NCBI GenBank assembly: GCA_947034895.1
Contig: OX344762.1
Location: forward strand, 80,160,981-80,224,980
DNA length: 64,000 nt
Source of the DNA: Rhytidiadelphus loreus
Lineage: Eukaryota > Streptophyta > Bryopsida > Hypnales > Hylocomiaceae
Direction of reading: 5' to 3'
Shown: positions 7,391 to 64,000 of the stretch, one piece after another
Layout: each line of letters starts with the position of its first letter
Numbering within the stretch: position 1 is the first letter of the stretch
Program-made: the position numbers and the translations under genes
Notes under the pieces: generated by a model
What the model was told of the DNA's origin: nothing
What the model saw: only the letters and a program-made list of their open reading frames with translations
Databases searched by the model: none

Positions 7391-7399
7391 CATGCCCAT

Positions 7400-11300: not shown

Positions 11301-11408
11301 GTGGCTCATGTTCTTGATTTTACTCCATCACTCACTAATCGCTAGATAATACTTTGCGGTTTAGGGTTAAGTTTAGATTCCTTGCCCCAAATCTCAAGAG
11401 CATCTCCA

Positions 11409-13735: not shown

Positions 13736-13986
13736 CCAAGGAGTTTTCTTGTATAAAGTTCTAGGGGTACCCCTTGTTTTATCACCTTGGCTCCGTTGAT
13801 AAAACTCTTGTCTTGGACCTTCGAAAGAGGCTTCATGCGGACGTTTAACTTCTTCGGAGGGCAACAACCGTGTTTAGAAGGGTTTACAAGACCACTCTAA
13901 GCGGGTTGCTTTGTCATTACATCTTCCATAGTATTAGTGTGATTATTGTAGTCATTTTCTTTGAAGACCCAGTGTTGATCTACTAC

Positions 13987-18128: not shown

Positions 18129-18295
18129 ACGCTGGCTGTCCACGTCAGTTCTGAAGCCCTGCCACGTAGGCAAAATCTATTTACCATGGGGTAAAATTTT
18201 TTACCCCTCCGCGACACGATGTCAAGTAAACTCGACACTTTGTGACACGCGACACGCGACGTCAGACGTCATACACGACGCCTAAACCCAAAAAT

Positions 18296-41658: not shown

Positions 41659-43139
41659 GTTGATTGTCATCACACTACTAAATACTGTATATGATTCACA
41701 TTTGAATTACTAGGGGTCCAAACAAATATACACTAAGGTATTTAGATGGGTCTCGCAATAGTAGTTAAGTCTTGTTTTCCCCTTCCACGGACGACAACGT
41801 TGCCTCTTTGAAGTTACAATAGAATGACTTCCTGCGACTACCTGAGCAACTACTGAATGACTACTTAGAAGTCTTAGACTACTATGCACCTACTGTACTA
41901 TTGCTTTGGCACTTTGTGCATTGTAATTCAAAATGCCATTTGCAAACATCCTATGTAGTCATCATCTCATTTCCTAAACATGAAGTGAGAAAACTTAGGA
42001 CAATTATAGATGTCCGTGTTGTGGGGAAGTCAAATAGGTGATCTTAGTACTCTTCCTATGTCAATCCTTTTCATTCTCTTTAGCAAATTTGTCTATAACT
42101 TTCGATTTGAGACTCAAAATCTAAAATGGATTTTTAAAGATGAAAGTGAGATTGATTTTCCAACTTCAATTAGTTTAAAGTTTTTTGAAGAAGGATAATA
42201 TACTATGCCTAAATGAAGTCTAAAATATTACTTGTGATACAATATTAATTCTTGCATTTTATATATCCCACATGGTTTGTCTTGCCTCCTACCACCCCAC
42301 TTGTATAAAAAGTTTGTCATTTCAACTCTTTATACTCACACACTAAATGGCTTTGTAGCCATGTAACATATTTGTCAAATGTGGTGTATTGTATGTGGTG
42401 TATTGTGCATTATTTATAGTGTATTATATATGTATGGTGTATTGTATATTATTTATGGTGTATTGTATGCTATTTATGGTATATTATTGAAGAACTTTGA
42501 ATGCATTCATATGTCATTGTAGAATGACTACTCTCCATGCAATTGTCATTACACTCCATTTAGCACACAATGTTGCAACTTGAAAAAGACTATAAAATGA
42601 CTCCACGTCCTTGGGAAGTGATATAATCCCTAAATCTATATTACTACAAAATGAATTGCCACGTGTCAATCCATTTGAACAGCAAAAGACTTCATTGAAA
42701 CTTCTAAATGACTATACAATGACTTTTGACGTGGCCGTGCACATCAGATGAGACATGGGTCTATCATAACTTCTAAATGACTTCTAAATGACTAGCCATG
42801 TGACTATCCATGTCAAATGTGGCATGGGTTTGTCATAACTTCATAATGACTTCTAAATGTTTAGCTACATTGAACTCAAGGAATTAGCACTTTCCACATG
42901 GTAGCTAAAAAGTCATTTCCTTAATCCAAATTTTCTTTATCACTTGAATAGAAATAGTTAGTCACATACTTATACATCCAAGGCCCTTCATCCTTGGTGA
43001 TAATAAAAACTGCAGTCATTTATAAACTACTTGTCCCCTATGACTCTAGGACCCTTGAGTCATTCCACAGTCACATGTGTCCAATGTGACTATTTTGCAA
43101 TCATTCTTTGAAGTCATTTATGTGCCTATTTTTTTATAG
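41659..43139. other. Intergenic region, no gene seen
   Basis: Simple runs of GTATTGTAT-TATTTATGGT occur near 42385-42485, and repeated words such as ACTTCTAAATGACT occur near 42700-42860. No coding frame is supported. Confidence 0.4.
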
Positions 43140-44990
43140 TGGATGCATTTGGGATATTAGGTTGAAAAACAATAGAGTCAATAAAATATGCTAATAGTGC
43201 TATACATATTTTCACTTTAGGTAAAATACCTAAAGGCTTGATCTTGCTTTGGTTGGCCATGTGCAAGACCAATTTGGTTTCTTGAATTCTTGGAGTCCAA
43301 GGAGGTGAAGTCTTTGCATTGTGTCTCAGTTCATTAAATTTATGCTTGAGCCACCATCTACTTGGACATTAAAAATTATAAGACCTTCAATTTTGACATC
43401 AATACACTATAAGAAACCTATGTTTTAGGTGACATTTTGTAATTTTTTTAGATATATTTTAGGTGACATCAAAAAAAAAAACTTGTGTTTTTTTGTTAAA
43501 AATCATGTCAAATATAATATGTGGATGTTATATTTGACGTGATTTTCGACAAAAAAACACAAGTTTTTTTTTCGACATCACCTAAAATCTATCTAAAAAA
43601 ATTACAAAACGTCACCTAAAACACATGTTTCTTATAGTGATAATAGGAGCACTTGGATCTGGATTCAAACCCACTTCATGAACTTGCCTACCATGCCTCT
43701 TAACCAATTTGGATTTTAAAGTTGCCCTACAACTAGGAGTTATGCCCAAAAGTTGCCTAGTTGTAATGTCAGCCTTAACTTGACCCAAATTGTCAATGAT
43801 GTCATAAGAATTTGTTACGTCAGTAATTCCTATTTGGTTATTTATTCTTTTTTTCCTACTAAGCAATTTAACTGACTTACCAATTTGTTTTTCAGCTTTC
43901 ACTAAGCCAATTTTTATCAATTTGGGTTCATCCTTCTCCACAAGGTTCTTTGACTCTATCCAAATAAGTCTAATAACCAATGATTTATGATCACTTGAGC
44001 CAACTGGCTCAACCAAATCGGATTGATGACTATTATTAGATACAACTATCCGATTTGGTTTATGAATTGTATTAAGTATAGTCATTGTAATGACTGGTCC
44101 AAATTGGACTGACTTCCCATTTGGTTTACTGGTCTGCCCTTCATTCCAAATTGGATTTGTCACTGGTTTACTTGATGTCTCATCTAATTTGAAATTAACA
44201 TTTAATCCTATTTGATTTTTATGCTCCAACAACTATCGGGCTTCCTTACGGGTCATTTCTTTTTTCCTTTTTCTAATTTTCTTGATATATTTTCCTTTAT
44301 AATCTTGCCTTTTTAAATCAAATTGATTTTTGATTTTGATTTAGATTTATATAAGGTAAAAAGCACAATCCTTATCAAATCAGCTAATAATACAATTTTA
44401 AGACTATTATCCTTTTTCTTGTTATTATATCCATCTTGGGATTTGTTTCTACATGAAACATTGCACTCCTTGGTTGTATGGCCGTTTTGATTGCAATTTC
44501 CACATAGTAGTACATAACCCACTTATGCCCTAGCATTTGGACAATTTGTCGAAATATGGCCCGATTGTTGGCAATTATAACATATAATTGTTTTGCCTTG
44601 ATCCCAATTGGGCACTTGTCCCCCCTAAGTGGATGGACCTTGGTTCACATTGCCAAATGGCATTTGTGCCCAACCTTGATTATTATTGGTTGGCATTTGT
44701 GCTACACTCCGAAATCTTAGGATTATTACTAAATCTACCTTTATTAAAATTGTTAGGATTGAAATTTGGATTGGATTGATTATAATTAGGGTTAAAATTT
44801 TGGTTAAAATTTCTTCGCTTTGGTCTATTACCCCAATTTGAATTACCCCTTTGATAATTATTACCCTCCACTTGGTAAACTTAGCTATTCCTATTTTGGC
44901 CAACTTGTTGGACCAAACTTGCTTGCATATTGCGGCATGGCTTAGTTTCATGTTTTAAACTACAAAACCTACACTTCATGAAAGCATGTA
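43140..44990 (-). pseudogene. Ty3/gypsy gag-protease fragment
   Basis: The minus strand encodes retroelement gag pieces: a CX2CX3HX4C motif (CRFCSLKHETKPC) near 44975, then an Asn-rich stretch, then two CCHC zinc knuckles, CYNCQQSGHISTNC and CGNCNQNGHTTKEC, separated by a TAA at 44523-44525. Further on, VKADITTRQLLGITPSCRATLK is the usual segment before the plant gypsy protease. VQVDGGSSINLM, the protease active-site DGGS form, and LVLHMANQSKIKPLGIL follow beyond the MITE at 43405-43639. Several stops and frameshifts occur. No reverse transcriptase or LTR is seen. Its 5' side ends at the TA-flanked inverted end at 44991. Confidence 0.82.
43405..43639. mobile_element. CACTA-type MITE inside the gypsy protease, 235 bp
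   Basis: The ends are CACTATAAGAAACCTATG and the complement CATGTTTCTTATAGTG, and the arms are complementary over most of the element (AGGTGACATTTTGTAATTTT and its partner). ATA is duplicated at 43402-43404 and 43640-43642. Removing it and one ATA rejoins the gypsy reading as PIITI then VKIEGLIIFNVQVDGGSS. Confidence 0.95.
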
Positions 44991-45026
44991 AGGTAAACCA
45001 ACCTATGATAGGCCAACTGCCTAATG
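44991..45026 (+). repeat. Left 36-bp terminal inverted repeat of a pogo-like element
   Basis: AGGTAAACCAACCTATGATA followed by GGCCAACTGCCTAATG matches the complement of 53931-53966 at 30 of 36 positions by my count. It is preceded by TA at 44989-44990. Pogo/Tc1-mariner elements duplicate TA on insertion. Confidence 0.7.
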
Positions 45027-45410
45027 CAGACATCTACATAAAGGCCCATTATAGGTAAAAATTGAGTAGTTTACAGAATAATTCTAGGTAGAAACTTCTG
45101 ACTGCTTTAGAAGGTAGTTGGGTTGCATTTTAAATTTAATTCTTTGTCATAGAATTTACGAATGTTGTATTGGGAGATGTTGTGACGGTTCTGACAATGC
45201 CAAGGGGTTGATTAATACATAAATTTTACCAAATTAGGCATACTTACAGCCTCTCTTTAAATTGAAAATTGACGGCTTTGGAAAAATGACAAACTGCAAT
45301 GGAATGGAATAGTAAAGACAAGAGGCAATTAGGTTTCAAAGTGGCTTGTAGAACTTATCAATTGCAATTGCAAGTGTTTTCTTAGAATTGTAGAATGTTC
45401 TAATGTACAT

Positions 45411-48119
45411 TTGAGACTACCTAGAACACCACTAGTTCTACATTCTGCCATGAGAGAACATAATAGTGATGATGAAATGGAGACTTCATTGTCTGTTGAT
45501 TTGTTTGATAGAGGAGATTCAAGTGTTGAAAATTATAGTACTAGCAGATCAAAGAATGACGGAGACAATGCTTCTGATGAACTTGGAGAAGAAGAACAAT
45601 ATGAAAATCTCATTGACTCCATTTTTGGAGATGAGGATTCTGAGAGGATCCCTGCAACAGAAAAGGGCAAGAGTGTTAGGGAAAAAGGCAGCAATATTAG
45701 AGAGAGGGGCCAAAATGAAAATAGAGACACATGAAGTAGAAACAAGCAGTGGAAAAAAGGAGAAGCAAGTAGTGGAAATGATGTAGGAAGAACTGAAGAA
45801 GGTGATGGAGGCAATCAGCAGTCTGCTGCAAGTGATTCAGATGGAAGCAATTAGCAGTCTGATGCAACTGATTCACATGGTTGCAACAGTCTAGAACATG
45901 AAGAAAATCAAAAGACAAGAAGGAAGGAAAAACAAGGAGGAATGTGGAGGCAAGGGGAAAGTTCACTCACACCAAAGGGATGCTCTTCAATTGCAAGGCT
46001 AGCCCACCAACACAATGTTAGGGACAATACAAGAAAGGCAAAGGTAATTGTCCCTACAACTTTCCTAAAACCAACCCTAGATGTTATGGACACATTACCT
46101 TTGCCTCCTAAACAGAAAAATGGATCAAAGAAGCCCTTGAAATAATCCCGTGGATCATGGTCTAATGAGGCCCTTCAAAAAGTTGTTTTAGCTATAGAAG
46201 ATGGACACAAATTGAGGATTGTTAGTGACTTTTATAACATTCTAAGAACAAGCATCATGGAGCATGTAAATGGCAAAAGAAAATCAAGGAAACTAGGAAG
46301 GAAAGGAGTTCTTACCAATGAGGAGGAGGTTGGTCTAGTAGACTATCTAGACAAGATGTTAGCATGGGGACATCCTTTAACTATTCATGATTTGAAAGAA
46401 AAAGTTGCTGAAATGGTGGAGGAAAGACCTAATCCATTTACAAATGGAAATCCAGGAGATAGTTGGGTTAAATGGTTTAAAAAAAGACATCCTACCTTCA
46501 CCCTAAGGGTAGCCCAAGGACTAGAAGTCAATAGAGCCATTGCCTTATGTCCAAAGAATGTAAAAACATTCTATAAAAATCTTGCATTTTTGTATGCAAT
46601 GAACCAATATCCTCCTCATCACATCTGGAATGTGGATGAGAGTGGAGCCCAAGCTGGAAAGGGAGGAAGTAGGGTACTAGCACGTAAGGAAACAAGGGTG
46701 GTTCATTCTTTAATTGCAAACGAAAGAGAGTCTTTGATAGGTTTAAGTTCTATAAATGCTGGAGGTCAAACCATTCCTAATTTTTACATATTCAAGGGCA
46801 TTCACAGAATGAGAGACTATCTAGCACTTTGTGAGACTGATTCCACTATGAGAATGCAACCTAATGCCTCGATGACTTCATTTCTATAATCTAAATGGAT
46901 TGATCACTTCATAGCAAATGTTGCAAAAAATGGAGGAATGAGTCCAACTAATAGACACCTAATGATTTTAGATGGACACAATTCCCATGTCACTTTGGAT
47001 GTCATAACAAAAGCAAGAGAAGCTGGATTAGATGTATGTTCTTTACCTTCACATACCTCCCATGCATTACAGCCTCTTGATGTGGCAGTTTTTAAACCTT
47101 TCAAGACTGCCTTTAAGGCCTATAGGGACATCTGGTCCTTGCAAAACAAAGGCAAAAGTGTTAGAAAAGAGGATCTAGCACAATGGGTTAGTCTAAAACT
47201 TCACAAGGCCATGATACCAAACAAAATCAAGGCTGGATTTTCTGCCACAGGGATTTGGCCACTAAATCCACAAAAACTAGACAATAAAATGAGACCTAGT
47301 GAGGGATTCACTCACAAACCACTAGATGTACAAATCCAAGAAATTTTGGAGGAAGATGTACTTGGCACCCAAGAAGATGTTGTCCATTATTTTGTTGATG
47401 AAGAAAGTGAATGTCCATTTGAAGACCAAGAAACAGATGATGATCTTGATCCTGCAAATGATAGACATTTTAGTAGATTTGTGAGACTACCTCAACAAAT
47501 CATCAAGCCAAGAAGAAGCATAGAAGATCCAAGAATTGACTATTCAAAGTCACATATTTTGACTAGTAGCCAACATATTCAAAATGTGGAGGCATTGGCA
47601 AACAAGAAAGCTAAGGCTATGGAAGAAACAAAAAGAAGAAAAGAACAGAGGGAGCTTACCAAAGTGAAGAGAAGGGAGGACAAAGCTCATTTGGAGGTGA
47701 TCAAATCTGCAAAACAAGCTGAAAGGGCAGCAAGCAAATTATACAAGGCACGTTGGAAAAACAAGGCAATAAAAGAAGCATGTGAGAATCTACATAGACT
47801 TATTAAGGCAAGGGGGAGGGGAAATACAAAATTACCTCTATACTGTGGATTACAACCACCTCATTGCAAATCAAATCAGAAAATTACTATTGAGAGGCTT
47901 AGAGCAAAAAGAAAAAGAAAAGATGATGGAACACCTCTACCAGATTTTCCTCCCATTGTAGAGCTACCATGGACATGGAACCAAGAGCCTAGAGGTCCAC
48001 AAGTCCACATAGGAATGCTTGTAAGAGGTTCAGCTTTTGGAATGCCACAAGGTTTTCTAGATCCAAATGGACAACAGCCAATGCAAAGGACAAACCCCTT
48101 TATAACTTTACTGAAGTAG
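45411..48119 (+). pseudogene. Pogo/Tigger-type DDE transposase with four in-frame stops
   Basis: One frame of about 900 codons is broken by TGA 45732-45734, TAG 45852-45854, TAA 46143-46145 and TAA 46887-46889, with no frameshift. After an acidic, low-complexity N-terminus comes a psq/CENP-B-type helix-turn-helix (RGSWSNEALQKVVLAIEDG), then a second DNA-binding part (WVKWFKKRHPTFTLRVAQGL), then the DDE_1 catalytic core: WNVDESG, LDGHNSH, and SHTSHALQPLD with 35 residues between the last two aspartates. A Lys-rich coiled coil ends the protein. The catalytic residues survive, but the stops should prevent a full product. The frame is AT-rich and intronless. Confidence 0.88.
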
Positions 48120-49938
48120 TGAAAGTTTTTACATTAAAAAAATTTGAAAATGGAAAAGAGTTTAGAATAGGGAAGAATTAGATACTTGTGAGCAATTTAG
48201 AAGGAGAACATGGCTGAGTATGTTTCTAAAGACAGTAAAATGGGATCCAAAAAGCTGCACAATAGAAGTAAGGATAAGCTCAAAGCAGATTACAATAGGT
48301 CAATTGAAAAGAGCAGAAAATTTGACTAAAAAGGGCTAAAAGAAGCTTATCAGTTCTCTAGGTAAGAGATCCTAAATTTGCACCTACACAACCAAGGACA
48401 ACTTAGCATTATTAGTTATGAAGACTACTCTTTTGTACTCAACTGATTCTTTACAAATATATAAGTATTCTTTTCCAATTGTTTGGACTCATGTTTTTCT
48501 CATTTTGAAGTTTATGTTGATGAAGATATTGTGCTAGCTTAAAAAAATTCCAAGATAATGTTAATTTGTCCCTTAGTGCAAGTCTTTTTTTAGCTACACT
48601 TCTCTTGTCTAACACCCTAGGGATGCAATGACAAACATTGTAAGTTATATACCAAATTATTAAATTTTCATGCACTGTGCCATCTGAAACCTACCAAAAT
48701 TAGTATTCCAAAACAAACAAAATAGAGGCTTTGAGCAATCATTAGAATCATGCTCAATAACACTTATCAGAATAAAATATATTTGACAAAAATTAAAATG
48801 TTTGACATACCTAAAAAGACACCCAACATATTGTAAATGAATCTGATTCCAAAAGACATCCTAACCAACTAAATTCATAATGTATCACTTCATTTAGGTT
48901 TAGTTGACCCTCACAATTACCAACTGACTATGCATGGAATCACTAAATACAATACACCTCTCCTACTGTGATTGCTCACCATAGACATAGTGATTGTAAC
49001 TATAACCCAAGTTGTCCCATCATCTGCTTTGACAAAAAAAGAATGGAACTCTTTCTATAGAACTATCCTTAAAGTTCTTTAAGAGATTTCAAAACTGCTT
49101 CTAGAGCTATAGCCCAAATGAATGTGCCAAATGCATCCCACCCTACACAACAAATCGAAATACTTTAGCTTAAAGATTTTCCACTTCAACCTTAATCCAA
49201 AGTAGGGGTCAATATATTCTATGAAAGACGTTCCAGAGTGAGATAGATGACTCAAAAACTCAAGACATTGTAGCACATTTATTTGAGTTTGACTTCCAAT
49301 GAGTGTTTTTGCTATTTCTTCAGCCAATGATAAACACAATAATAAAAAGAGGTAGCCTGTTTGTCCTTTAAGGGTTAATTGGAGGTAAAGAAAATACACA
49401 AAATCATCACCTAGCTAGTTTATTCCCCCAAAAAACTTTCCCGGCCCATCGAGCACACATTGATTTAGCACATCATTATATCTAGCTCTCAAAAAACTCA
49501 CCCATATATATATATATATATATATATCCATTGATTAGTCTAATCATCATTGCTGCCTTGCGCACCTTTTCTCTAAGCATGGTTGGCTAGCTGCAGAGTG
49601 AGTGTTGACGTGATCCCACATATCCCGATCTGCACAAATGAAAAACCAGACCACTTAACTCTTGGAAGGAAAGATTGAAGAAGACCCATGCCGTGATGCA
49701 ACATAGCAAATTTGATAATTGTTTCTAAAATTTTAGTTGACACCAGAAAAATCATTGCATTTACTTAATGGCAGGGTCACAGGCTGGGATGCAAAACACA
49801 GTCATATGATTTAATTAATTAACAGCATCCGCATTCGTTTGCAGTGCGATTAAATAATTGAGGCCATCTAATTGCATTGCAGATGCCGCAAAGAGAAGCA
49901 TGGGTTATGTGGATTGTGCTTACTTAGCTCTGACTGGA
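48120..49938. other. Interior of the 9-kb TA-flanked segment, no gene seen
   Basis: No coding frame is supported between the transposase and the PLP-enzyme fragment. A (TA)n run of about 24 bp lies at 49504-49527. No nearer copy of the right inverted end was found, although diverged copies cannot be excluded. Confidence 0.4.
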
Positions 49939-51990
49939 TCATTGATCACCAGTAGTACCAACTAGTTGCAGCACTCCCACCACATACGCCGCTCGTTGCG
50001 ATCGATTCTTGCCATGACGACGTACAAGCTGATGAATCCGATATGACCAGTGAACCACCTCTTTGGAAAGAGGGAACCATTTGTTGTCTTTTATCAAGTA
50101 TGACTTATAAAGACTGTCACATGAAAGCTCACTGTTACTTCCATCTACAAAGGTTCCATCGGCAAACACTACCTGCATAGTGTACAACAGAAAATGAGTA
50201 TGAGAATTCAAAAGGCAAAAGGACATGCGACCATTATTTGAAAAATAGAACAGAACACTTAACTAAAGTTGCCTCAGAAAAGGATCTTACTAGGATCTAT
50301 TGCACATTCTTGCACACTATAGGTAGCATTGGTCAAGGATCGATCAGTAGTAGCCTTGTTAAATAAATTGGCGTGTTTTACAGCACCGAAATTGTGACAT
50401 TCATATGCTCTGATGTTCCAGAAAGAGAAATGTCCAATTTCCTGAACTTTTGCCAGACTTAACAAGTCAGTCTTCAAGCATGTATATTTTCCTAGCTAAC
50501 TCACATATCCATAACAATATTATCATACACACTTTAGCATTTTATTTTAGCGAAGTGAAACTCATATCAAACTTACAAAGTGCCATCTGAAGCCATGCAG
50601 GAATAGGATGACGGTCAAATGTGTTATACCTCAAATCTCTGCACAAGGTTCAATTCAAAATATCAATAGTCATTTTTACAACTCAAAAAAATCCAAAACG
50701 GTATGTTTTGGAAAGCCAAAATTATAACATTCAAGTACACAAATTTCTAAAAACTAGTACTGGTTTCGATTTAAGATTCCAGATGAACAATTGGAAAAGT
50801 GTTTACTTCAAATTTCAGTGTTTTAACAAATTATATGGCGGTTTCAACAGGGCATGGCAAAAGAGATCTTCACAACTTGTAGTCCAGCAGCCACTATTGT
50901 CAAGTCTAGTTCCAGTGAATTGGTTATGTTCTAGAAGTCTGTATAATGTAGAGACAAACTCATGGTTAACATTGAAAATCCATCTTGAGTGAAATCCCAG
51001 AAAGAAAAAGAAAAAAATGCAAAATCATCGTCAATGTTCTGAGCTCTACCTGAGTATGAAAAGCTGCAATAACTAGAGATGCAAACTGCAATTATCTACC
51101 ATATTCAACCCTAACTATATTCGAGATTTCTGAGTAGTCCATGATTTTCAGGCAGTAGCTACAAAAAGAACGACAGGATCATATAGTGTTCTACGTCAAA
51201 GGGACATACCTTAGGATTACAAAAGTCTTGGAGTTGCTAGAGTTTGCAAGAAGGCATCTAGAACTTATTCCACTTGTTGATCTTCTAGTCATCCTGCACA
51301 GAAGTTTCTACATTTACACTAGTGTATAGTACATGAATTAGGTGCCCTACAACCAAGCTCGTTGCCGCAGCATTTGGACAGACGACCAGCCCTTAAGGCA
51401 CCCAATAGCAGGCCCAGACAACTTTGAAAACAAGAATATGGATTGGCCTAGTCCAAGGCCGGAATGGTACAATGACCTCATCCTACTTAAAAAAAACTAA
51501 ACAAAACAATTTCATTCAAATTCAGAGTGTATTATCATACCTGTGAGTGTACAATAGCAACCTCCGAGCCAACAATATCTGCTAATGCTAGGTCAAGAGC
51601 CTCTCGCCCTCCTACATCATGCCTGTTGTGCTTGCAAAGTGCTGCAAGAAAAGATTGTATATTTCAAGATGACAAACATAACAGACAATGAGAATCATGA
51701 AAGAAACTATCTGGCCATGCTGATGCAAGTCTCCTTACTCTGAAGATTCTTGGTATCACCAGCTATTATGCTCTAATAGCTGCAAGTTATTCACAGTTCC
51801 CCCTAGTTGCATCTAAACCATCGTGTAAACACTTTGAAGAGTAGTATGTCAACATCAGGCAAACAGTGGCTCTTACATGTAAACCAACTCGAGCATTTGT
51901 GTAAGCATTCAAAACACGGCGGATATTAGTTGCCACTAGGCCATCTATCTCCATAAATTCAGGCAGCAAAACTTTGACAACTGCTGCAAC
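49939..51990 (-). pseudogene. Broken Met_gamma_lyase / aluminium-resistance family PLP gene fragment
   Basis: Exon 51877-51990 encodes VLLPEFMEIDGLVATNIRRV then NAYTNARVG, the typical N-terminus of plant and bacterial PF06838 proteins. Exon 51541-51641 continues HFASTTG, then after an apparent 7-bp loss that shifts the frame, HDVGGREALDLALADIVGSE and VAIVHSQ. The splice sites are canonical. A C-terminal exon from 50172 encodes VVFADGTFVDGSNSELSCD, the family's late conserved block, then diverges to a stop at 49939. The central PLP-lysine part is absent. So an intron-containing host gene copy was deleted internally. It lies inside the 9-kb segment bounded by pogo-like inverted ends. Confidence 0.62.
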
Positions 51991-53930
51991 CTGCCAACCT
52001 CTGTGTTAAGTAATGCGAACCTCACGGAGGAGTACGCATGCAACTCCACATTGTCAATCCAATAAAGTATCTAATTCAAAGACAAGCAAATAAATAAAAT
52101 TTGATCCTCTCCAACTAACTAAAACAAAATACGGGTGTGATAAAAAAAACGTAGCATCAACAAATATTAGCAACAAGAATGAAGAACGTCAAGCAAAATA
52201 CAAAACCCCCCGTCATCTTATTCTGCAACGTGCTAAGAATCTGCGCACATACACATAGTAATGAAAACTCATCTCAAAATCAAGCACTTAATTGCTCCAC
52301 ATTGCAATTTCAATATTTACTCACATTGAACCATTACAGTTCAATCGCAATAAGTAAAAACCGCTTCCCTCTCACATACTTAAACAAACTACGATGAAAA
52401 ATTTAGCAGCAATCAAGGATTTACAGTGTCACTGAGACTACAAAATCTCGCGCCACTTCAATCCTCTGACGTGGCTAAGAATGTCTAATTGTGCGTACAA
52501 TAATGGAAATTTCAAGTCAACCAGTGGAGTCGCAAGCAATGGCACCGCGCGGAAGCTGGACCTCAAATCAACCATGGATCAGTGGTGTCAAGACATAAAG
52601 CTTCCGATTCCGCGACGTCCGCGATTCTTACTCCCTCCTCCTATTGCAACGATGCTGACTTCTTTCCGACTCTCTTCATTCAATATAGTGTGGTCACAAA
52701 AGAAGCTCTAAACAACCAACTTCTCAGAGAGTGAAACTGTAAACCCTAAATTCACCCCTTCCTCAACCAGCCTTTACCAGATTATGTTTGTAGACACTGT
52801 TGTATCCTTGCGTCCTTAGAAACGAGCCTAAGTACAGTGGCCAAGTTAAAGTCCCTGCAAGCAGAAAAGAGATGATCAATACCTCAGGTTCGAATTTGTG
52901 TGCGCAGCAGTTGCCATATGCAAGAAAACATGTGTTAAGTGTCATCAGCAGAGTGAAACCCGACGAACCACTATGTGATGTGGAGAAAAGAAGATAGTTC
53001 GCTTTCTCATAAAAAACAAGGATTCAAAAGTCCAATCGAATACATGTGATGTCTCCGGTATTGTTGGTATTAAGATGAAAAATGGATGGCGCAACATTGC
53101 CTCTCCTAAAAATTGAGTTACAAAGAATGAGACAATTTTGCACATTTCTTCGGAGCTTCTTGACACGCAGTTCAGCGACTGAGAACTCTAAATCCTAATG
53201 CAAAAAAGCCTACAACAAAATCGAAGAAGAATCGACCAAAGAGACAATCACATGAGGAAAGCATACTTTGAGAATGGTGAATGGCAAGGGCGGGAGAAGG
53301 GATTGTCAGAGAAGGGAAGGGAAAGATGGAAGAGAAACGGTAATTATCCCTGCAATGCGTCGGTGTGAAGGTTTCAGTGAGCATCCAACGCAAGTTGTCA
53401 AATTGGCACAATTTGGCGGGTGTAAAATTTTGACAAGGATGCATTAGTAAAACGGTTGGAAGGCCATGTCTTGTGGCCTTGGAGCATGTAGCCATTGCTC
53501 TGTGTTCACCAACAGATGTCAAATTCTGACACAGACATGATGACAGAGCATGGCCATTATGCCTGCCTCTAATGAAATTTAAAACAATCACTTTGCAATC
53601 TGTCAATGACTGTTTAATGTCTTAAAAGGGCCGGTTTAGATTGAAAGCGGTTTGATTTTAGTATCCTCTAACTCTAAATTGCCTCCATTAATACCTGAAT
53701 TAGGCATGTTCATCTTGATTATGGGCACATAATTGCCCTGAAATGGTGTTATTTCTGACTGTCATGACCCAGCCAACGGGTTGTTTTGGAATTTCCAGTC
53801 AGTTTGCTTTATTAAATGAAATGAAAATGATGTGATTATTGAATTTTTTTTGGATCATCCTTGTTGTTTCTTAACTCTTTCACAACACTGAAAATTAATC
53901 CCTTTGTCACAGACCTCTATTTTCATACCT
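51991..53930. other. Upstream flank of the PLP-gene fragment, no gene fixed
   Basis: Less AT-rich than its surroundings. It may hold the promoter and a transit-peptide exon of the broken gene: a short minus-strand frame near 52433-52572 begins MVDLRSSFRAVPLLATPLVD. No splice link to 51990 was confirmed. Confidence 0.3.
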
Positions 53931-53966
53931 CATTAGGCAATCTGCCTGTCATAGGCTAGTTTACCT
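53931..53966 (-). repeat. Right 36-bp terminal inverted repeat of a pogo-like element
   Basis: Read on the minus strand it is AGGTAAACTAGCCTATGACA followed by GGCAGATTGCCTAATG, preceded by TA (53967-53968 on the plus strand). It pairs with 44991-45026. The pair spans 8,976 bp. Confidence 0.7.
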
Positions 53967-53968
53967 TA

Positions 53969-55109
53969 GTAATAATGCGCACGTTATGTATTCTGTGATC
54001 CTAAGAGAATTTAAATATTAAATTCCATTTCACAATGCACTAGATTGAATTGTTTATTTTTGTGGTCAATTAAAGTAGGATTCTAGGCACTAAATGAAAC
54101 CATCATTGCATATTTTTTCAACACTTTGAACAAATTTAATAAATTTGCAAACAAGTGCTTAATTACAGTATCCTTTATTAAAAAATACTTGTAAAGATTT
54201 TGTTATAAAAGAACTCTTTATTAGTAGACTTAATAAAAAGTCATTAAAAATCTTTAAAAGTCTTATAAAGACTTTATACTAACAAACTCAATTAAAAGTC
54301 TCTTTAAAGAATTTTTTTTTAAGGGTTTTGATAAAAAATAACTTTTTTATTGAAAGACTTAATAAAAATTCTTCTATTCATCAAAATTCTTATTTTAATA
54401 TAAAGTCCTTTTTAATTCAAAAAATTTCTATTAATATAAAGTCTTGTTTTAATATAAAGTCTTCTTTCAATTAAAAAGTATTCTTAATAAAATAGATTTT
54501 TTTTACTTATAGATGACTTTTCATTACATCTTTTATTAAAAAATCTTTTAGGGATTTTGAAGACTTTGTATTAAGTCAATTTATAAAAAGTTTGTTTATA
54601 GAAAGTCTTAAAAAGTATTTTTTTTAAAAAGACTTTGTATTAAGTCATTTAATAAGAAGTTTGTTTATAGAAAATCTTAAAAAGTATCTTCTAAAAAAAA
54701 CTTGTATTAAGTCTTCTAAATAATGAGAAGTCTTTCAAGACTTTTCAAAACTTTTTATTGAGTCTTTCAAGAAGAAGTTCTTTTATAAAATGTCTTAAAA
54801 CATAGTCTTTCTAAAAAGAATTTTTTTATTGAGTCTTTTATTGAATCATAGCATACAATTTTTGAGCATTATGAATATGTTTAATAAAATAGCAAATAAG
54901 TGCTTAATTACAACATTCTTTATAAAAAAATGCTTTTTAAGACTTTTTAGAAAATAACTTATTGTTAGATTGAATAAAAATTCATTAAAGTCTTTAAAAG
55001 TCTTATAAAGACCTCTTACTAAAAGACTCAATTAGAATTTAGAAGTCTTTTTAAAAAAAAGACTTTTTAAGACTTTGGTAAAAAATATTTCCTTATTAAA
55101 AGACTCAGG
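53969..55109. repeat. AT-rich degenerate repeat field (AAGTCTTTTAATAAAAAGTC type)
   Basis: From about 54130 on, variants of AAGTCTTTTAAT and TAAAAAGACTT recur every 15-30 bp in both orientations, so the strand can fold back on itself. TTTGTTTATAGAAAGTCTTA-like blocks recur near 54590 and 54660. No coding frame is supported. Confidence 0.75.
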
Positions 55110-55210
55110 GTTGCTATTCTGTGAGCCTACGCTCGTGAGCTTGTGAGCTTGTGAGCTTGCGAGCATACAATTTTTTGGTGTAAAGTTTAGAGTGAGACCT
55201 ATGACCGTGG
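55110..55210. mobile_element. Solo arm related to the 40.5-kb foldback element
   Basis: GTTGCTATTCTGTGAGCCTA, GAGCTTGTGAGC repeats, GCATACAATTTTTT and ACCTATGACCGTGG match the left arm at 40525-40692 in order. No partner arm is seen within the window, so it is a fragment or a strongly deleted copy. Confidence 0.65.
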
Positions 55211-56198
55211 CTTTTAGAATAGTACAGAAATGGAATAAAATATTGAAATAATATTCCCATTTTGGCAATCCAAATCAATTTTAATCCTAAAAATATATTG
55301 TAAGTCCAATTTTGTTGAAGTTCATTATATTTACCTATTAATAAATTTGTATCAAATATCACATATTTTATATGTGTACTATTTAATTCCACAATTTCTA
55401 TAATTAGAAACATTCAATTAAGATTCTGAATACTATCAATAAGAAATTCTTTCATTAAATCATACTAATTGAAAATATTTGAGAATAGGAAGAAAGGTAT
55501 AAAAAAAATAGGAGTAGCCAAAATGGTGGTGACATTGATATATTCATTGAATTGGAACCACAAAAATTCAAGACAAAATTTTTGAAAGTGTAATGTTTTG
55601 TGATCACAGGATACTATCATTGAAGTGTCAAAACAATGACAATATTGAAAAGTTGAAATAAGCATTCAAAAGAACTAAGAAGTACAAGGTTCATAATATT
55701 TTAATTGAAGAAGTATATCCAAATTCAAATTCTACCTTTCAAAAGGCCTAGAAGAATTGCACTGACCTATAATGGCTACAAAAAGAGTTACGGTGGAAAT
55801 CAAAAGGTTGACACTAGTTCCTTCTCTCGGCTCTGAGAGGTCCTACAACGATAGACAACATTGATCAATCTTCCAAAAAATCAATGTAACAAGGCTCTCT
55901 CCATTTCAATCTAAATCCTTGTGAATTAAGTCTAATTTATCCACCAAAAATATTAAGAAGAGGAGGCTATAGTATCCATAGCATATTTTATTGTACAACA
56001 AAAACATCACATAAGAAATTGAAAGTATAGAACAATGCAATGTAGTTGTTTTGCCTTCATTATGAAAAACTATAAAAAAATCAACAAAAATTAGAAGTTC
56101 AATGTAATGAAATAGTAATTGTTTTCCCTTCATCATGAAAATAAATAAAAACAAATGGAAAATTTGATCCAACAACTATGCAGTAACTGAAAATAGAA
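55211..56198. other. AT-rich spacer downstream of the methyltransferase-like gene
   Basis: No gene is seen. A CTCTCGGCTCTGAGAGG palindrome lies near 55835. Two related stretches containing TTTTCCCTTCAT or TTTTGCCTTCAT-TATGAAAA occur near 56050 and 56120. Confidence 0.4.
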
Positions 56199-59100
56199 TC
56201 ACATAGATGAAGAAGACATTGACTGAGAATAATCACTACTATCAGTACAAGAATGGCCCTCATCTACTTCTATAGCTGTCAAATCTAAAAACTGCAACAC
56301 CTTGGGATGTACATTGGCAATTTTATTCCATGTAGGAATAAGTTGCCGAGATGCACAATCAACAGCTAAAGCCTCAGCATACGTCGGTAGAATATATGAT
56401 TTCTCCGGACTCGGAAAAAATCCTGGTAAGGAGTAGAACGGCCGGTGTATGGCCTCAGTATGAATCATGCTACAAAAACAAAATTTAGAGTTAGAAAAAC
56501 TTAAAGATAGTCTAGTGCTTGAAACTCATGGAAAGCAAAATCAAAACAAAAAACAAAAAAAACTTACTTATTGAATCGGGATTTTTTGACGATACGTGGA
56601 ACCACAACATCCTCTGCATCGGGGTCATCTGAGGGCACCATTACTACTGTAGGTGTGGCAGGAACAACCTCAACTGTACGAATGAGAGGGGCAAGCATTG
56701 CATCAAAGATGGCCTTATCTTCTTCCAAGGCAATGATGTGCCTGTCTAGAAGCCTACAGCTGTGGATGGCCGCACCTGAAATATATGCATTGACTTAAAA
56801 TTAAACTGGATATAAAAAAACATGTACAACATATTCAAAAACTTAGTTCGTTAAAAAAAATGTAGATTGTAATATTTACCAGTTGAAGCTGTACAATCTA
56901 CAACCACGTCACCAGGCATAGATGAAGCTTCAATGAACATCTGCATAAATCGAGGGTCCTTCTCACGTGCACCTCTCCAAGGAATACCCTCATTCATGGC
57001 CATTGTCTCCGCCTTTGTGTAGTTTTGGAGAATGTCGTCACGTGCAATGTCTACTCCAAGTGCCTTCAACTTTGGGCACGCTTGAAATGTAAACTTCGAA
57101 GGTCCAACCTCTGGCAAGTTTCTCACCCATAGTGAGATTCCAAAACGCAATGTCTGTAGAACAAGGCTAGAGAATGTCAATAGAATACTTTAGAAATTAC
57201 AAGAGAATTTATATAAAGTTGAAAAACTTGTAATAATTTAAATTAAACATACCGTGAAAGAACGATCCAATGGTGACGTCAAGTGTAAGCAGTTCATCCC
57301 CCACCATTCCTTCTGTAGTTTAAATGCATATGGGTCTGCATATCCAAGAATGTCTGCTTTGGCCTGAGCCCTATACGGATGGATAATAATCAATGCCCCA
57401 TCATCTTGCAAATGTCCATCAGCAAACTCAAAAAGAGACTGAAGCCAAGTATCAGATCGTTGATTCCACTTTGGAATGGTAGTAGGAGGCTTGGAAACAT
57501 CAGGTACTGGTAATCCTTCTGGCATGTCAGCAATGATAAGATCTACACGTGGCTTGTCACTTTGAACCCCTTTAAAGAATCGATCTTTATCCGCCATGTG
57601 CTGCAACAAATACAAATGTCAAAATAAAATAAGAAATAAATAAACTTGAGAAAGAGGAAGCATTTAAGAGGTAATTGAACGCACCTTTTCCATGAATTTG
57701 ACAATGTCATGGTATAACTGAGGTAAGGGATCACCGAGGACAACCTCCAAAGACAAGTTGCAAATGAACTCATCAATGGTGATGTCACTATCATTGATCA
57801 CATCAATGACAGTGGGGCCATGTACTAACCCATCTTCCGTCAATACTAGATGCTCAGATCCACGTTTTGTGCCTCTTGAACTGGATGTCTGGAGTTGAGA
57901 TCCCTGATCCACTGCAGATGACATAGGAATGGGGTGCTTTGAATTCTTCCCCAAATTCTTTTCAGTAGGCGTTGCCTTCCCTTTCTCAGCATTTCGTGCA
58001 ATCTTCCTTGAAACTCTTTGGAGAGCCTTGTCCACGGCCTCAGAATTCTTAATGGCAATCATTTTATCTGCGTCGTCTCTCCTCTTCACAGCCTTTGCCC
58101 TAGTATCTTCATCCAAGTCAGCAAACTCCTCGTACTCTTGAACAACTTCTTGCGAATCGATGGACTGCTTCAAGCGGTCTTCAGGAAGAGGAGTGAACTC
58201 TGGTGGGCAATCAAGGTACCATGCACCTGATTTCAAGTGCGCACTTGTCCACCACTTCAACTGAGAGGGAGAGAACATGCAATGCTCAGTAGACACGTCC
58301 AACCAAGTACCAAGAAAAGGTGGCAAATCACGTTTTGCAATTGCTCCCTTTGGAAGTAATTCATACTTGAAGTACCTACAAGCATGTGAAATAATTTTAG
58401 AGATAAGGAAACAATGAAGAATGAGAAGAAAATGACATGAATTTAAACTTATAAATCAGCACTTCAAAAGAAGAGTTACCTAAATAAAACGCGCTTAACC
58501 ACAAGGTCCGAGCCTTTGTGCTTTATGAAAGAATCTGACTTCCTGAAGACATCATGTCCTCTGAAGTTTGCAAGAAAAGCATGATCCCAGAGGCGAATTC
58601 TCCAAGCCTCAATGTATTCTGATAGGTCCTCTGGTTCTTGGGGAGAGTCCATGTCCAAGACTAGGTTATCCTTCTTCACGATAGTATCAAACATATCTGT
58701 GGCAGCATCTTCAATCTAGACATAAATAGATACATTCTGGTTAGATTAAAGCGTTGATCACTAAGTCAACACTTCAAAATCTAATCTCAATTGTAAATAA
58801 AAATTATATATACATAGCAAAATCCTCAAAATTTAATTAGAATAACTCACCCCTGAATACCAACATGCCTTTACTAAAAAGGACTTCAAATCCGATTCTC
58901 CAACAGGCTTCAATGGAAACCGATGTGCCTCTCTAGTCTGGACGGAAGAGTTCCACCAACGTAGCCACTTCACTTTGTGCTCAGTTTTTACATTGCAGGT
59001 AGCAATCATCTGCAACTTTTCGAGAGTCATCTCTGGCACAGCATTCGTACTCCAATGGCGCTCAATCTTCACACAATAAAGTCATTTATCAAAATGATTG

Positions 59101-62100
59101 CAATATTGAAAACCAACAAAATACAAAAATCCATTGTAAAGATGTAGTCACCTCATCAAGCCATTCCTTCCCAAGGTTAGGATTAGCCACAGCAGTGAGT
59201 TTTCCCAATTTCTTTGTTAGATGAGTTGTCTTCTCTTTGCTGCCTTGTCTCATGGTAGCCAAAACTCCATCTTCTGATTGATCCTCGACTATTGTCTCTT
59301 CTTTATACAACCTCACTGCGGTATCAGCTGCGGCAGCAATCTCGTACTGTAGGAAATAATTCAAACAAAGAAGTCAGAAATGACATAGGTCCAAGTAAAA
59401 AAATATAGAGAATTAATCGTTTGAGGTCAGCTGAAACTTACACAATAGATGAATGCTGTAAAAACCTCCGTGGACATACTGTACCAAGACTTCCTTAAAT
59501 TCTGAGTGCACTGAGACATCTCGGAGGGGCTCAAGTGCTCAGAGAACTTATCCAACGTCATGACTCCATACTTACGCACCCTATATAGGGTGTGAACCAA
59601 GCTTGTTTTGATAAAAGAATTCTCAGTATGCCTGTAAAGCAAGAAATATTGATTTGTTAAAATACATGAAATCAATAAACAAAAGAATGAAATGACATTA
59701 ACAAATGGAGTCAAGGATAGACATACTTGTTAATGTCATGCATGATATGCATGACAACACCAATCCGTCCTTTGGTCTCTAATAAAATAGAGTCAACAGA
59801 AACATGCCAATCTCGGTCGGCGGCATGGTGGCGAGAAATGTAGGCTGACCAGGCCAGAAGTCGATGGTTCCCATCACAAACAAAAAACTTGGAATTCTGA
59901 AGATGCTTCAATTCAGGGGTAGCATTCAAATGTGCATTGAATATATCGTTCTCCTCAATCCAGAGAGGTCCCCATGCAACTTTATCACTGTCAGTCACAA
60001 CCTCTTCCTCCCCTTGTTCATTAGTAACTGAAACATAAAAAACAGATGACCCATCTCTGTATCCATGTACATATTCTTGCTCTAGCCTTGTCAAGTCACA
60101 CTGCAATGCGGGACGAACCATAGGCATTTGCACAAGACGACACAATGGAATGCGGAGACGAGAAACTGCATGAGGCTTCATCCTTAAACTGGAGATTGAA
60201 GCCACCGAATTGACTTTCTGAAACCTACGAAGGGCATCTTCAGAGGTGAATTCATCCGTTGCCTCTTCATCATCAGAACCTCCATCATCAATGTCATCAG
60301 TTGTCCCAATAGCCGACTGATCGGAGGCATGGGATTCAACCATGCCCGATATCGTAACAACCTCTTGTGCAGGAGGTGCTTGTAGCTGAACCTACATAAA
60401 AGAAGCATATAAATCATGATTGATTAGGCAACTATAAAAGCAAGGAAAATATAATTCTATACTAACTGAGAAATTTATCATCTATTCACTCCACACTTAA
60501 TCCAGACTCGGCGCCGAGACGTACAAGAGATTATCTTGTATTTGATATATCAATGCAAACGTAGGACTTCTCCTAAATATAACCAAACCGGAAATTCCAA
60601 TAAATGATACAAACTACTAAATAACAATCTGGAACATTATCCAATAGATGTCAAACATACTATGAAGAACATGTCCTCTCGGTGCCGAGAGGACATATTT
60701 GAAGGCCAGAACTGGATCAAGTACATAAACTATTAGGCTCAATTTGAAATTTAAATAGGTATAATTTGGGGTCCGGCCTTGCTCTCGGCGCCGAGAGGAA
60801 GGAATTGAGCCTGCCCACTTGATCACCCTAATCTCCACATTAACCTTATAATATAACTAAGGGCCGCCTGATATCCAACATATGCAAAACATATGGACAT
60901 TAAGGACTAGCACTTTTAGTCTGAGATCGAAACAACATTGGGATATATGTAGTGGCTGTGCCAAAAAGAATTTCGTTTTCCTCCTAAACCCCCCAAATTA
61001 CCTTAGAATATCAACTAACAAAACATCATAGAATGATGCTATCTATAGAAGTCCACATATATATGTAGCTCTCGGCGCCGAGAGGTGTCTATGAATGTGT
61101 TAGGTTTTGCTAGAAAACAACAAGCATGAAATGAAGTTCAAGAATATTAGAAATATACAAGAAAAATAATATGTAAAGTATCCCTCACGAATCATGTACA
61201 TGATCACAAGTTTAAGGGTCCGCGTTCCTCTTGGCCCCGAGAGGTACAATTTATCCTAGAAAATTTGTCCATGTTATCAAAATTCTTCTATTGACTTGTT
61301 TTAGTTCATCTTAATTCTGCTTAGAATCTAAAAATCCAAGTTTTATGATATTTAATTTGTAGGTCTTACAAAATTATGGATTTACGGCTATCTAATCAAT
61401 TGTATCCATCAAATGTGGATGGTCCAGTTCATCCTCTCGGGGCTGAGAGGTGTCTTTTAGTAGAATACTACTTATCAAAATAAGGTTTTCATGCACATAG
61501 AAAACAATTATTTGCAGTATGTCAACTAGAGATAGACCCTATCCATTGGCCGAACACCATGAAATTTAGACATGATTTTGCCTTAAAGTCAACATGGCTT
61601 GGGTCTTTCCTTGCTCTCGGCGCCTAGAGGTCCACTTCAGTCGGCAACAATGAATGGACTTGATGATCGATTTGAAATAATTCTAGGTTGAATTTAGTGG
61701 ATGTTGACTGTTTACCTATTAATTAGCAAATTAGCTTCAAATGGAATCTAAACTAATTCTTGCTTACATCATTAATTATACAAATATGAGAGCATATGAT
61801 TAGGTCAAATTTTAATCATCACAGTGATCATGTAAGAATAGTAAGATGGACATGTCAATGATGTTAAAGATTGATTTTCATAAATTATTAATCTAATACC
61901 AACTTGTAACTTTTTGTTGGAGCTCTACATCAAGGTGAGATCGTAATTTATTTCATCTAAAATCAGTCTAAGGAAGGAGCACTCTAATCAAATATTGAAT
62001 GGTCTCGAAATACATTTGCCTCGAAATACATATTCGGCTGTCTGGTGTTCCCATTCCAGACCAGCCCTCGGCGCCGAGAGGGAGAATTCCAGCATCCAAA

Positions 62101-63344
62101 CTGAAGTCGTCATCACAGGGAGGAGAGAACGGGAGACTGATTTCAAGGCTCCACACGTTCGCCTCGGAGCCGAGAGGAAGGAAGGCAGCCCGCCAGTGTG
62201 ATGGTCGGGGTTAACAAAATAACTAGTCCTGTTACCTTAGTTCTGGTTTCCTGAAGCCACAATACGATTTCTGATCAAGCATGATTTGAACTATTTGCAC
62301 GATGCCTGAGGTCACCCACCCCTCTGTGCCGAGAAGCTGCAGGTAGTCCTGTTCTCCGGTAATATATCAATTGTTCGATTCACAATGGAGAGAGCAAAAC
62401 CTAACGTCTATAGATTTCAATCCGAGCTTATTTTGAAACTGGAATATGGAAGTCTGACTGCGATGCAAGTCCGACTACGATGCAAGTCTGACTGCGATGC
62501 AAGTCCGACTGCGAGCTACTCTGGTTACCAAAATTTTTTAAACATACTCGTCCATCTGCTCTTGTTCTTCGAAGCTCAGATGTTCCATTTTGAGCTGCAC
62601 CAGACGTCGACAGTCTCGAAACACGGAGGACAGTGCGACAGGTGCGAAACACGGAGGATGCAAGCCTGACTGCGAGCTACTGTGGATATCGAAAATTTAA
62701 AAAAAACTCGTCCACCTTCCATCTGCTCTTGTTCAATGAAGCTCCGATGGACCAGTTCAAGTTGCCCTGGACGTCGACATGCTGCAGACACTCCTAAGGA
62801 TCCAGCGCTCGAAACACTAAGGACAGTGCGACGAATTGAAATCTAACTTCTACAGATTTCAAACGGAGCCAACAGCATGCAAGTTTGACTGCGAGCTTCA
62901 TCGTGAATACCTGAACCGTACATCTATACCGGATCTTTGATGCTCTGATGGGCCAGGTCGAGCAGCCGTAGATGTCGGAGGAATACAAATAGTCTTGCAG
63001 GAGTCGAAGATCTCGGACCACGGAGGAGACAGAGGTGTCTATGAATCAAATATCTAATTGTTGCCCTCGGAGATGAGAAGAAGCTAACTTGACCGGAAGC
63101 TGGATCAGCAGCTACCAAAAATTTCAGATCCAGTCACCAAAACCCTAGATTAGAATTTCTGCTCTGCTGGCTTGTACCGCCTAAATCTCTCTCCCACTGG
63201 AAGACAACTACAGTTAAGTGTAGTTTGAGCAAAACTTACCTCGTTCGGCACTTGTGCAGGAGTCGAAGAATCATTGATGTCGGTTTCGTCATCTCGAGCT
63301 CTGTCCTCGCTTCCGCTCCCGTCGCCGTCGCCTCCCCGTCCCAT
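56199..63344 (-). CDS. ParB-like plus beta-class N6/N4 methyltransferase-like fusion, 11 exons, intact
   Basis: Minus-strand exons: 63240-63344, 59727-60391, 59442-59631, 59152-59346, 58851-59066, 58480-58715, 57685-58375, 57253-57600, 56880-57153, 56568-56775, 56199-56469. All borders are GT-AG and all phases agree, giving 1,132 residues with no stop. ATG 63344 is in a perfect GCCGCCACCATGG context; an in-frame ATG at 63380 would add 12 residues. Residues 36-90 are acidic. Residues 110-220 resemble a ParB/sulfiredoxin fold ending FFVCDGNHRLLAW (206-216). The C-terminus looks like an amino-methyltransferase: DLIIADMPEG (790-795, motif IV place, but DMPE rather than DPPY), a GALIIIHPYR strand, then PRFMQMFIEASSMPGD (motif X), VVVDCTASTG (965-974, motif I) and RHIIALEED (motif II acid). 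The order IV-X-I-II is that of beta-class DNA methyltransferases. Loss of DPPY may mean altered or no catalysis. No transit peptide is evident; nuclear action is inference. Confidence 0.82.
60392..63239 (-). other. 2.85-kb first intron with dispersed GGCGCC palindromes
   Basis: The intron is bounded by GTAAGT and TATGTAG on the minus strand. It contains about eleven words of the type CTCTCGGCGCCGAGAGG, spaced 100-700 bp: near 60507, 60673, 60782, 61069, 61227, 61433, 61614, 62065, 62161, 62322 and 63064. Four have the exact CTCGGCGCCGAG core (60507, 60782, 61069, 62065); others differ at one to three bases. The surrounding DNA is AT-rich and unique in appearance. Confidence 0.8.
62446..63010. 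repeat. Degenerate tandem repeats inside intron 1
   Basis: At 62446-62512 a 17-bp unit (AGTCTGACTGCGATGCA) occurs about four times. From about 62497, a larger unit of 150-190 bp recurs three times: GACTGCGAGCTAC, ACTCGTCCA, ATCTGCTCTTGTTC, GAAGCTC-GATG, GTCGAC, CGAAACAC...GGACAGTGCGAC. The third copy (about 62876) is strongly diverged. Confidence 0.7.
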
Positions 63345-63380
63345 GGTGGCGGCACTTCGAGTCCCAGGTCTCCTCCCCAT

Positions 63381-64000
63381 CTCAATTGCAGCCTAGAAAA
63401 ATATTTAAAAAAATTCAACCCTTACATCAAGAGATCGATAGAGCCCTCACGAAATTCACAAATCAACCGTCACAACAAGAAAACGAACCAACTTTTAGAA
63501 CAACAAATTTAGGGTTACCCGGATTGGAGTTCAGATTTTCAGAACTAAACTATAGCATCCAGTATTGGCACTTACTGTCTTCAGAACCATTCGGGATTTC
63601 TCAAAAAATCTACAAGAAGCCCTTGCTTACAAGGTCAAAGACGAAGGCTGACGTTTTGCGACTTGCGATAAAAAGACCCCGTATCCTCCCTAAGTTTTGG
63701 GATTTAGAACGGACAAGCTCTTCAACGGAGCATCCTTCGGCATGTACGTTATTTGGCTATCATAGCAGCTTAGATAGTATACTCGAATACAGAGCATATT
63801 TAGAGCTGATTCTTCTTTATAATATGTTTTGTGGACATAATCCATTTTAGTTAAGATTCCTCATCATTGAAAATTTCTTGTTTGTTTTTTAATCATTTTT
63901 CAAAGAAAGAAAAATAAATACTAAATGTAGCGTAAGTGGTATTCTAGTTTTCTTTTCATTTATTTAGAATTTATGAATTTTTAATGATTTGGGGTAGTGC
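63381..64000. other. Upstream flank of the methyltransferase-like gene
   Basis: This should contain the minus-strand promoter, but no clear TATA box can be assigned. A plus-strand frame (63386-63850) with no recognisable domain overlaps it and is not called. Confidence 0.35.

Follow-up and report, generated by a model that had tools for sequence, protein, structure and literature searches.

Introduction

Transposon-borne accessory genes related to DNA modification are already known, since cases have been described in Ectocarpus and in fungi. The Ectocarpus element Sola1-1_Ec32 carries an accessory gene that joins ParB and DNA methyltransferase domains and is predicted to make N4-methylcytosine or N6-methyladenine (PMC12477816). 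Fungal DNA transposons are reported to carry TET/JBP dioxygenases (PMC12730594). Fusions of a ParB-type domain with a beta-class methyltransferase are also encoded by phages, including Streptococcus phage Javan316 and Acidithiobacillus phage AcaML1. VANDAL elements, which are Mutator-like elements (MULEs), encode in Arabidopsis the VANC anti-silencing proteins, in which we know of no methyltransferase-like or ParB-like domain. The targets of VANC are reported to be tandem repeats that diverge rapidly and lie in noncoding regions of the same element (PMC10398659). Here we describe a gene for a putative ParB-like/methyltransferase-like protein in a 64,000-nucleotide stretch of the moss Rhytidiadelphus loreus (GCA_947034895.1, contig OX344762.1, positions 80,160,981 to 80,224,980; hereafter the window, in whose numbering positions are given). 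The gene lies in a 15.8-kb DNA transposon present in many copies, and its product may recognise palindromic arrays of its own element.

The moss locus resembles Sola1-1_Ec32 in encoding a protein of about 1,100 amino acids (aa), here with a putative ParB-like part and an N4/N6-type methyltransferase-like part, on the strand opposite the (here transposase-like) transposase gene of a large DNA transposon; it differs in the transposase, which is Sola1 in Ectocarpus and MULE-like by eye here (PMC12477816). The moss element also has a degenerate motif IV and an element-specific palindrome array, and the two elements are likened by description. As to the arrangement of both domains beside an opposite transposase gene, the layout was found in the moss and the methyltransferase fold on a relative, the ParB part being putative and the neighbour transposase-like by eye. 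With the VANC/VANDAL system the locus shares an element-encoded protein and arrays that keep their place with changed units, as seen among the moss copies (PMC10398659); a VANC-type anti-silencing system would bind its own repeats with loss of silent marks, and the likeness seen here is one of repeat anatomy. The fungal TET/JBP transposons are likewise DNA transposons with a DNA-modification-related accessory enzyme, but that enzyme is unrelated. The phage fusions have the ParB-type domain first and the methyltransferase second, with the motif order IV-X-I-II, a layout that the moss protein shares with its putative ParB-like and its methyltransferase-like part; they differ in their length of about 400-450 aa and their canonical DPPY, HPTxKP and F[GNS]G-type motifs. 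The DNA N6-adenine methyltransferase CcrM and the rotifer N4-cytosine methyltransferase differ from the moss family by low identity and by the catalytic motif, which is changed in the moss family. No description of such a plant gene was found among the literature matches listed. Among those matches, and as far as the searches show, the novelties are an element that has this pair in a MULE-like arrangement, the reach of the family into mosses, a catalytic motif altered in every member and palindrome arrays, specific to the element, within the gene.

Results and Discussion

A two-gene transposon with terminal inverted repeats

A genome search placed the window at G000:C2:80160981-80224980. The element and its left end were delimited as follows.

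55106-64000, no strand assigned: part of the 15.8-kb transposon inside the window; the element continues to 70904 in window numbering (G000:C2:80216086-80231884).
55106-55156, plus strand: left terminal inverted repeat, starting CAGGGTTGCTATTCTGTGAG; 70855-70904, read in reverse complement, matches it at 78% across 51 bp, with 18 of the outer 20 positions alike.

The left edge was also seen in two other copies, A (C2:28.61M) and D (C4:3.63M), in which homology begins at 55105/55106 and the flanks are unrelated. At its own locus the element is bordered by a 10-bp target duplication (flanks TTAAAAGACT and TTGAAAGACT, 9 of 10 positions alike). Terminal inverted repeats and a target site duplication, by which transposons of this kind are recognised, are thus both present. 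A genome search with exons 8 and 9 of the gene returned at least 277 matches, a lower bound in that 150 of 1,896 candidates were scored, and one copy may yield two matches. An open reading frame (ORF) on the plus strand occupies 66486-68666, apparently continuing to 70419, and so separates the gene from the right end. By eye it shows CxC...CxH and DDE-like blocks, and copy D matches its first 1.16 kb at 99.0% identity. Taken together, the element is a 15.8-kb, two-gene DNA transposon with terminal inverted repeats, genes on opposite strands and many copies. MULE target duplications measure about 8-11 bp, a range into which the 10-bp duplication falls, and the superfamily, judged from such features, looks MULE-like. 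The preliminary description, made from the letters of the window, had presented a plant-style gene and had missed the transposon around it; the gene is one of many transposon copies.

Three other assignments were considered and set aside. Position 67655, at which copy D continues with another CAGGGTTG, was taken as a break in D and not as the element end. A CACTA element ending at CACTACCCC near 63999, with the tnp2 gene at 30-36 kb, had no convincing partner end, and the copies place the ends at 55106 and 70904. An identity as a hAT element, suggested by a CAGGG end, does not fit the 10-bp duplication, hAT duplications being 8 bp, nor the transposase-like ORF.

Gene model and homologous proteins

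The ParB-like/methyltransferase-like gene was resolved into the following parts.

56199-63344, minus strand: whole gene, 11 exons, 1,132 aa; supported by splicing and translation, homologous proteins and the intact copy D.
63240-63344, minus strand: exon 1 (residues 1-35); GT-AG, phase 0, with support from the close copy D only.
59727-60391, minus strand: exon 2 (residues 36-256), putative ParB/sulfiredoxin-like domain with IPLCRLV and CDGNHR motifs, by eye.
58480-59631, minus strand: exons 3-6 (residues 257-535), middle region; 40-45% identity to Ceratodon over the aligned residues of 331-457.
57685-58375, minus strand: exon 7 (residues 536-766), which encodes a charged linker as well as the conserved YFKYELLPKGAI block; protein P0007 aligns exactly to 536-766.
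56568-57600, minus strand: exons 8-10 (residues 767-1042), methyltransferase-like core with motifs IV DMPEG, X PWRGAREK, I DCTASTG and II ALEED.
56199-56469, minus strand: exon 11, C-terminal tail with LPTYAE and FLDL blocks common to Ceratodon; 23-27% identity to P0004-P0006 over 103 aligned residues of 1013-1132.

The coding sequence of 3,399 nt comprises 1,132 codons and a stop in a single unbroken frame, and all ten introns are GT-AG. A first protein search returned one protein (P0001) and a profile search seven in total. The moss Ceratodon purpureus accounts for three of the seven, all hypothetical proteins. These three (P0004-P0006) are paralogs with locus tags 6G, 1G and 9G, P0005 and P0006 being 84% and 79% identical to P0004. 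The longest match covers residues 364 to 1119. By these comparisons the splice model is regarded as sound from exon 4 on, because P0007 corresponds exactly to exon 7, P0001 and P0002 cease to follow the family where the window's gene has its 973/974 exon junction, as with intron read-through, and P0004 is continuous across 7 of the 10 exon junctions (residues 385 to 1042). P0005 and P0006 show one gap each at an exon junction. Copy D aligns to all 11 exons (1,133 codons including the stop) with no stop and no frame-changing insertion or deletion, and support for exons 1-3 consists of splice sites and copies in the same genome. A coding-score search suggested another model, in which intron 1 held two additional small exons and exon 3 was shorter; this model was judged inferior. 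Thus the 11 exons, their coordinates, the 1,132 residues and the uninterrupted frame of the preliminary description were all borne out.

A protein search with residues 766-1012 only gave no match, missing even P0001, and tblastn of the whole protein against phages gave nine records, the best with E 5e-3, all inside residues 946-1000. The putative domain order is that of the phage ParB-methyltransferase fusions, in keeping with the likeness first suggested. Motif-seeded scans of prokaryote species genomes (16 stretches) and viral contigs (242, 16 and 80 in three scans), which detect only sequences retaining the chosen words, found no relative.

A putative ParB-like domain and its conservation

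In the N-terminal ParB/sulfiredoxin domain (PF02195) a beta strand is followed by a motif of the G-x-[HR]-R type. Exon 2 reads IPLCRLV...RP...DGNHRLLAW...VDS, a pattern that resembles this domain by eye, with DGNHR at residues 208-212, where the preliminary description had put it (near residue 210). Across five copies the motif, again by eye, is CDGNHR in four and YDGNHH in one, and the exon is well conserved, one copy being 73% identical here as against 66% in its methyltransferase stretch. Pfam, PHROGs, NCBIfam, PADLOC and PDB sequences yielded no match naming ParB at a limit of E = 10, where HMMER filters discard most matches above 0.1. Structure prediction of exon 2 alone gave no usable fold (mean predicted local distance difference test score 33.7). 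We call the N-terminal domain putative.

Selection was examined through the ratio of nonsynonymous to synonymous divergence (omega). Over 1,133 codons the window's gene and copy D are set apart by 9 synonymous changes and 28 nonsynonymous ones. Against four diverged copies, compared over exons 8-10, omega was 0.17, 0.14, 0.11 and 0.08, the copy with 0.08 being near saturation (synonymous divergence 2.7) and carrying one frame-shifting gap; a fifth diverged copy was saturated. This range argues that the gene is needed for persistence of the element. On these comparisons, young copies drift and purifying selection acts on the lineages that persist, which is the pattern anticipated for a gene required by a transposon. 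The suggestion that the gene is under constraint or young is thus answered in part: constraint is seen against the diverged copies but is not visible among close ones.

Palindromic arrays in the introns of both genes

The gene contains and adjoins arrays of a short palindrome.

60504-62336, no strand assigned: intron 1 array in which an 18-bp palindrome with the consensus CCTCTCGGCGCCGAGAGG occurs ten times; one more copy, at 63063, has decayed.
55823-55840, no strand assigned: a further palindrome, flanking the gene on its 3' side; copies A and D have it too.

A search of the window with the 16-bp core at up to 3 mismatches gave 11 matches where 0.03 were expected, and intron 1 holds 9 of these. 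Over 12 copies (the eleven of the array and that at 55823) the core holds 1.29 bits per base, compared to 0.09-0.22 in the flanks, so the palindrome is mainly the part that has been kept; a weak conserved block about 20 bp downstream reaches up to 0.84 bits. At up to 4 mismatches the whole element contains 13 palindromes, 11 in or beside the ParB-like gene and 2 in the intron of the transposase-like gene. Beyond the window's own locus, five copies were compared. Twelve palindromes were found in copy D and seven in the copy at C2:45.0M. In the copy at C5:7.1M, whose identity over the matched core stretch is 49%, nine variant sites lie upstream of exon 2, spaced by multiples of 150 bp, and intron 6 contains a second array, with TCTCGCTACCGAGAG. 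In the copy at C1:33.9M the same intron holds a different 86-bp repeat of 16.7 units. Intron 1 of the window's gene also has a second short repeat at 62443-63101, near GATGCAAGTCCGACTGCGAGCT, in 7 copies that are partly a 17-bp tandem.

We consider it on balance probable, with modest confidence, that the gene is the accessory gene of a MULE-like two-gene transposon and that its protein recognises the element's own palindromic arrays and keeps the element active. The protein would consist of a putative ParB/sulfiredoxin-like N-terminal domain and a methyltransferase-fold C-terminal domain in which the catalytic motif IV is D[MVA]PEG in place of DPPY; it would bind the arrays in the introns of both genes and through them sustain the element, whether by counteracting silencing by the host or by assisting the transposase. 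Such action would be like that of the VANC proteins of Arabidopsis VANDAL elements. The analysis itself establishes the gene, the fold (on a relative), the transposon ends and copy number, the arrays and the purifying selection against diverged copies; binding of the arrays by this protein, the domain responsible and the effect are what we infer.

Several observations weigh against this proposal. The clearest weakness is that the transposase-like protein, and not the ParB-like one, could be the array binder. The transposase-like protein itself had no transposase match in Pfam up to E = 1, including MULE transposase and the SWIM zinc finger. The ParB assignment was not significant by profile: hhalign against 10 phage ParB domains scored 17.2, equalled by 6 of 200 shuffles, and a five-copy profile scored 17.2 again (100 column shuffles: mean 12.8, maximum 28.2), while in sliding windows two motif-bearing windows came top of the 13; moreover, the three Ceratodon gene models begin after the ParB-like part. 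The arrays are not uniform, as copy A, where the gene match begins at residue 730, has one palindrome only and the C1:33.9M copy none at up to 4 mismatches. The right end is known from the window's own copy only, by the inverted repeat and target duplication at 70904; homology to copy D stops at 67655, and the fetched 5' stretch of copy A was without match. Finally, the eight close copies (D compared over all exons, A over exons 8-11 and six over exons 8-10) gave omega of 0.46-1.45 or undefined from few changes, and two of the eight carry one stop.

The alternative that survives best, which we nevertheless regard as unlikely, is that the transposase or host factors bind the arrays, which would be ordinary repeats of an intronic or subterminal kind; the ParB-like/methyltransferase-like protein would then act otherwise, for instance by joining the transposition complex as a partner. 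It would account for the two palindromes in the intron of the transposase-like gene, and motif arrays also stand upstream of ORFs in another region of the window, where no ParB-like gene was noticed, no search aimed at one having been made. It sits poorly with the clustering of most sites in intron 1 of the ParB-like gene and with the persistence of arrays there in three diverged copies.

A methyltransferase-like domain with a changed catalytic motif

A class I methyltransferase fold of the beta-class DNA amino-methyltransferase type was found on a relative, with CcrM, M.BceJIV and the rotifer N4-methylcytosine enzyme as best matches; identity was 16% to CcrM (6pbd) and 12% to the rotifer N4-cytosine methyltransferase (8s9m). 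The C-terminal domain has the motif order IV-X-I-II, as in the beta class (PF01555), and the same order claimed in the preliminary description was recovered by profile alignment to phage methyltransferases. In that alignment the family profile matched the methyltransferase part of 8 phage proteins (8 of 10 fetched, two short ones without DPPY being omitted) with 93% probability and E 2.8e-7 over 175 columns, compared to 3.7% for the best of 30 column-shuffled controls. The gathering score of PF01555 was missed, the core alone reaching 25.1 bits against 26.7 (E 2e-5) and the whole protein 21 bits. Thus the methyltransferase-like half of the fusion first proposed, and its resemblance to phage proteins, hold, but the ParB homology does not reach significance by profile.

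The canonical catalytic motif of the PF01555 class is [DNS]PP[YFW]. In all seven proteins that cover the region, motif IV instead reads D[MVA]PEGLPVP, which keeps the aspartate and the second proline and lacks the first proline and the aromatic residue. Among 30 genomic loci, the window's own copy included, 29 had motif IV data: DMPEG in 27, NMPEG in one, DMPKG in one and DPPY in none. Ten locus pairs share their places, and the loci therefore represent about 20 distinct copies. Motif I reads D[CLW][TS]A[SN]TG in 6 of 6 proteins, its FxGxG loop appearing as [TS]A[SN]TG. We take these changes as a sign that the usual amino-methylation may have been lost or changed, and catalysis by this domain is doubtful.

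An active transposon-borne methyltransferase, targeted by the ParB-like part and writing N4-methylcytosine or N6-methyladenine on the element as proposed for Ectocarpus, is on this evidence improbable. The fold and its best matches, the retained motif I, X and II stretches and the constraint against diverged copies would all suit such an enzyme, as would the activity predicted for the Ectocarpus gene (PMC12477816). The replacement of DPPY in every covering protein, the DMPEG at nearly all loci and the altered FxGxG loop speak against it. The hint at N4-cytosine methylation in the preliminary description found no support, motif IV being degenerate throughout the family.

Two further explanations have very little chance of being right. 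That the host has domesticated the gene, or that it is present once and came from a phage or bacterium, would suit the long intact frame and the distant relation to phage ParB-methyltransferases, but it is refuted for this copy by the transposon ends, is at odds with the target duplication and the number of genome matches, and met no relative in the motif-seeded scans of prokaryote genomes and viral contigs. That it is a decaying copy, its gene intact through youth only and without present function, would agree with the few, not clearly selected differences to the eight close copies but not with omega of 0.08-0.17 against the four diverged ones.

Other elements in the window

A related element lies outside the transposon.

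40521-41662, no strand assigned: related non-autonomous element with similar ends, 83% identical over 71 bp to the left end, with a 10-bp target duplication ATTGTCACCA/ATTGTCATCA (9 of 10 alike) and two related palindromes, at 40833 and 40912.

Sixty-three copies of GGGCGACTGCGGGTC, at up to 2 mismatches, were found at 2526-18128 and none in 100 shuffles. They cluster upstream of ORFs at 756-2324 (minus), 4988-6022 (minus), 11346-13016 (plus) and the hAT-type ORFs at 13849-17262 (plus) and 18230-20341 (plus), and run in the opposite direction to the gene, those at 11167 and 13722 excepted; 6666-7985 holds another cluster. By its placement, GGGCGACTGCGGGTC looks like a shared promoter motif for genes of a large multi-gene hAT-type element. 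The ORF at 4988-6022 (minus), inside this region, is kinase-like (Pkinase E 4.1e-6, below the cut-off) and is possibly cargo of a large transposon. Remains of a CACTA-type gene were noted at 30084-36231 (plus) (Transposase_21, DUF4218 and a below-cut-off DUF4216), where a search for element ends found none. A 9-kb element at 44989-53968 has 38-bp inverted ends (84%) and adjacent HTH_Tnp_Tc5 and DDE_1 ORFs with a stop between them, and a foldback element with CACTATAAGAAAC ends occurs in two copies (37226-37451 and 43405-43639).

Implications for transposon biology

The means by which transposons evade silencing are still an open question. In this moss a protein and its own recognition sites may both be visible in one element, of which few cases are known to us. 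The site is a sharply bounded 18-bp palindrome, clustered in an intron of the gene for its candidate recogniser, and diverged copies within one genome have related or replaced arrays. A wider interpretation, which we hold only tentatively, is that self-recognition of the ParB/parS kind operates inside a eukaryotic DNA transposon, that the altered methyltransferase fold is used otherwise, and that protein and sites co-diverge between subfamilies in an arms race with silencing. With a short site and an intact protein, binding is directly testable. The catalytic motif is changed in all family proteins that cover it, and the methyltransferase fold may have a role in these elements without methylation.

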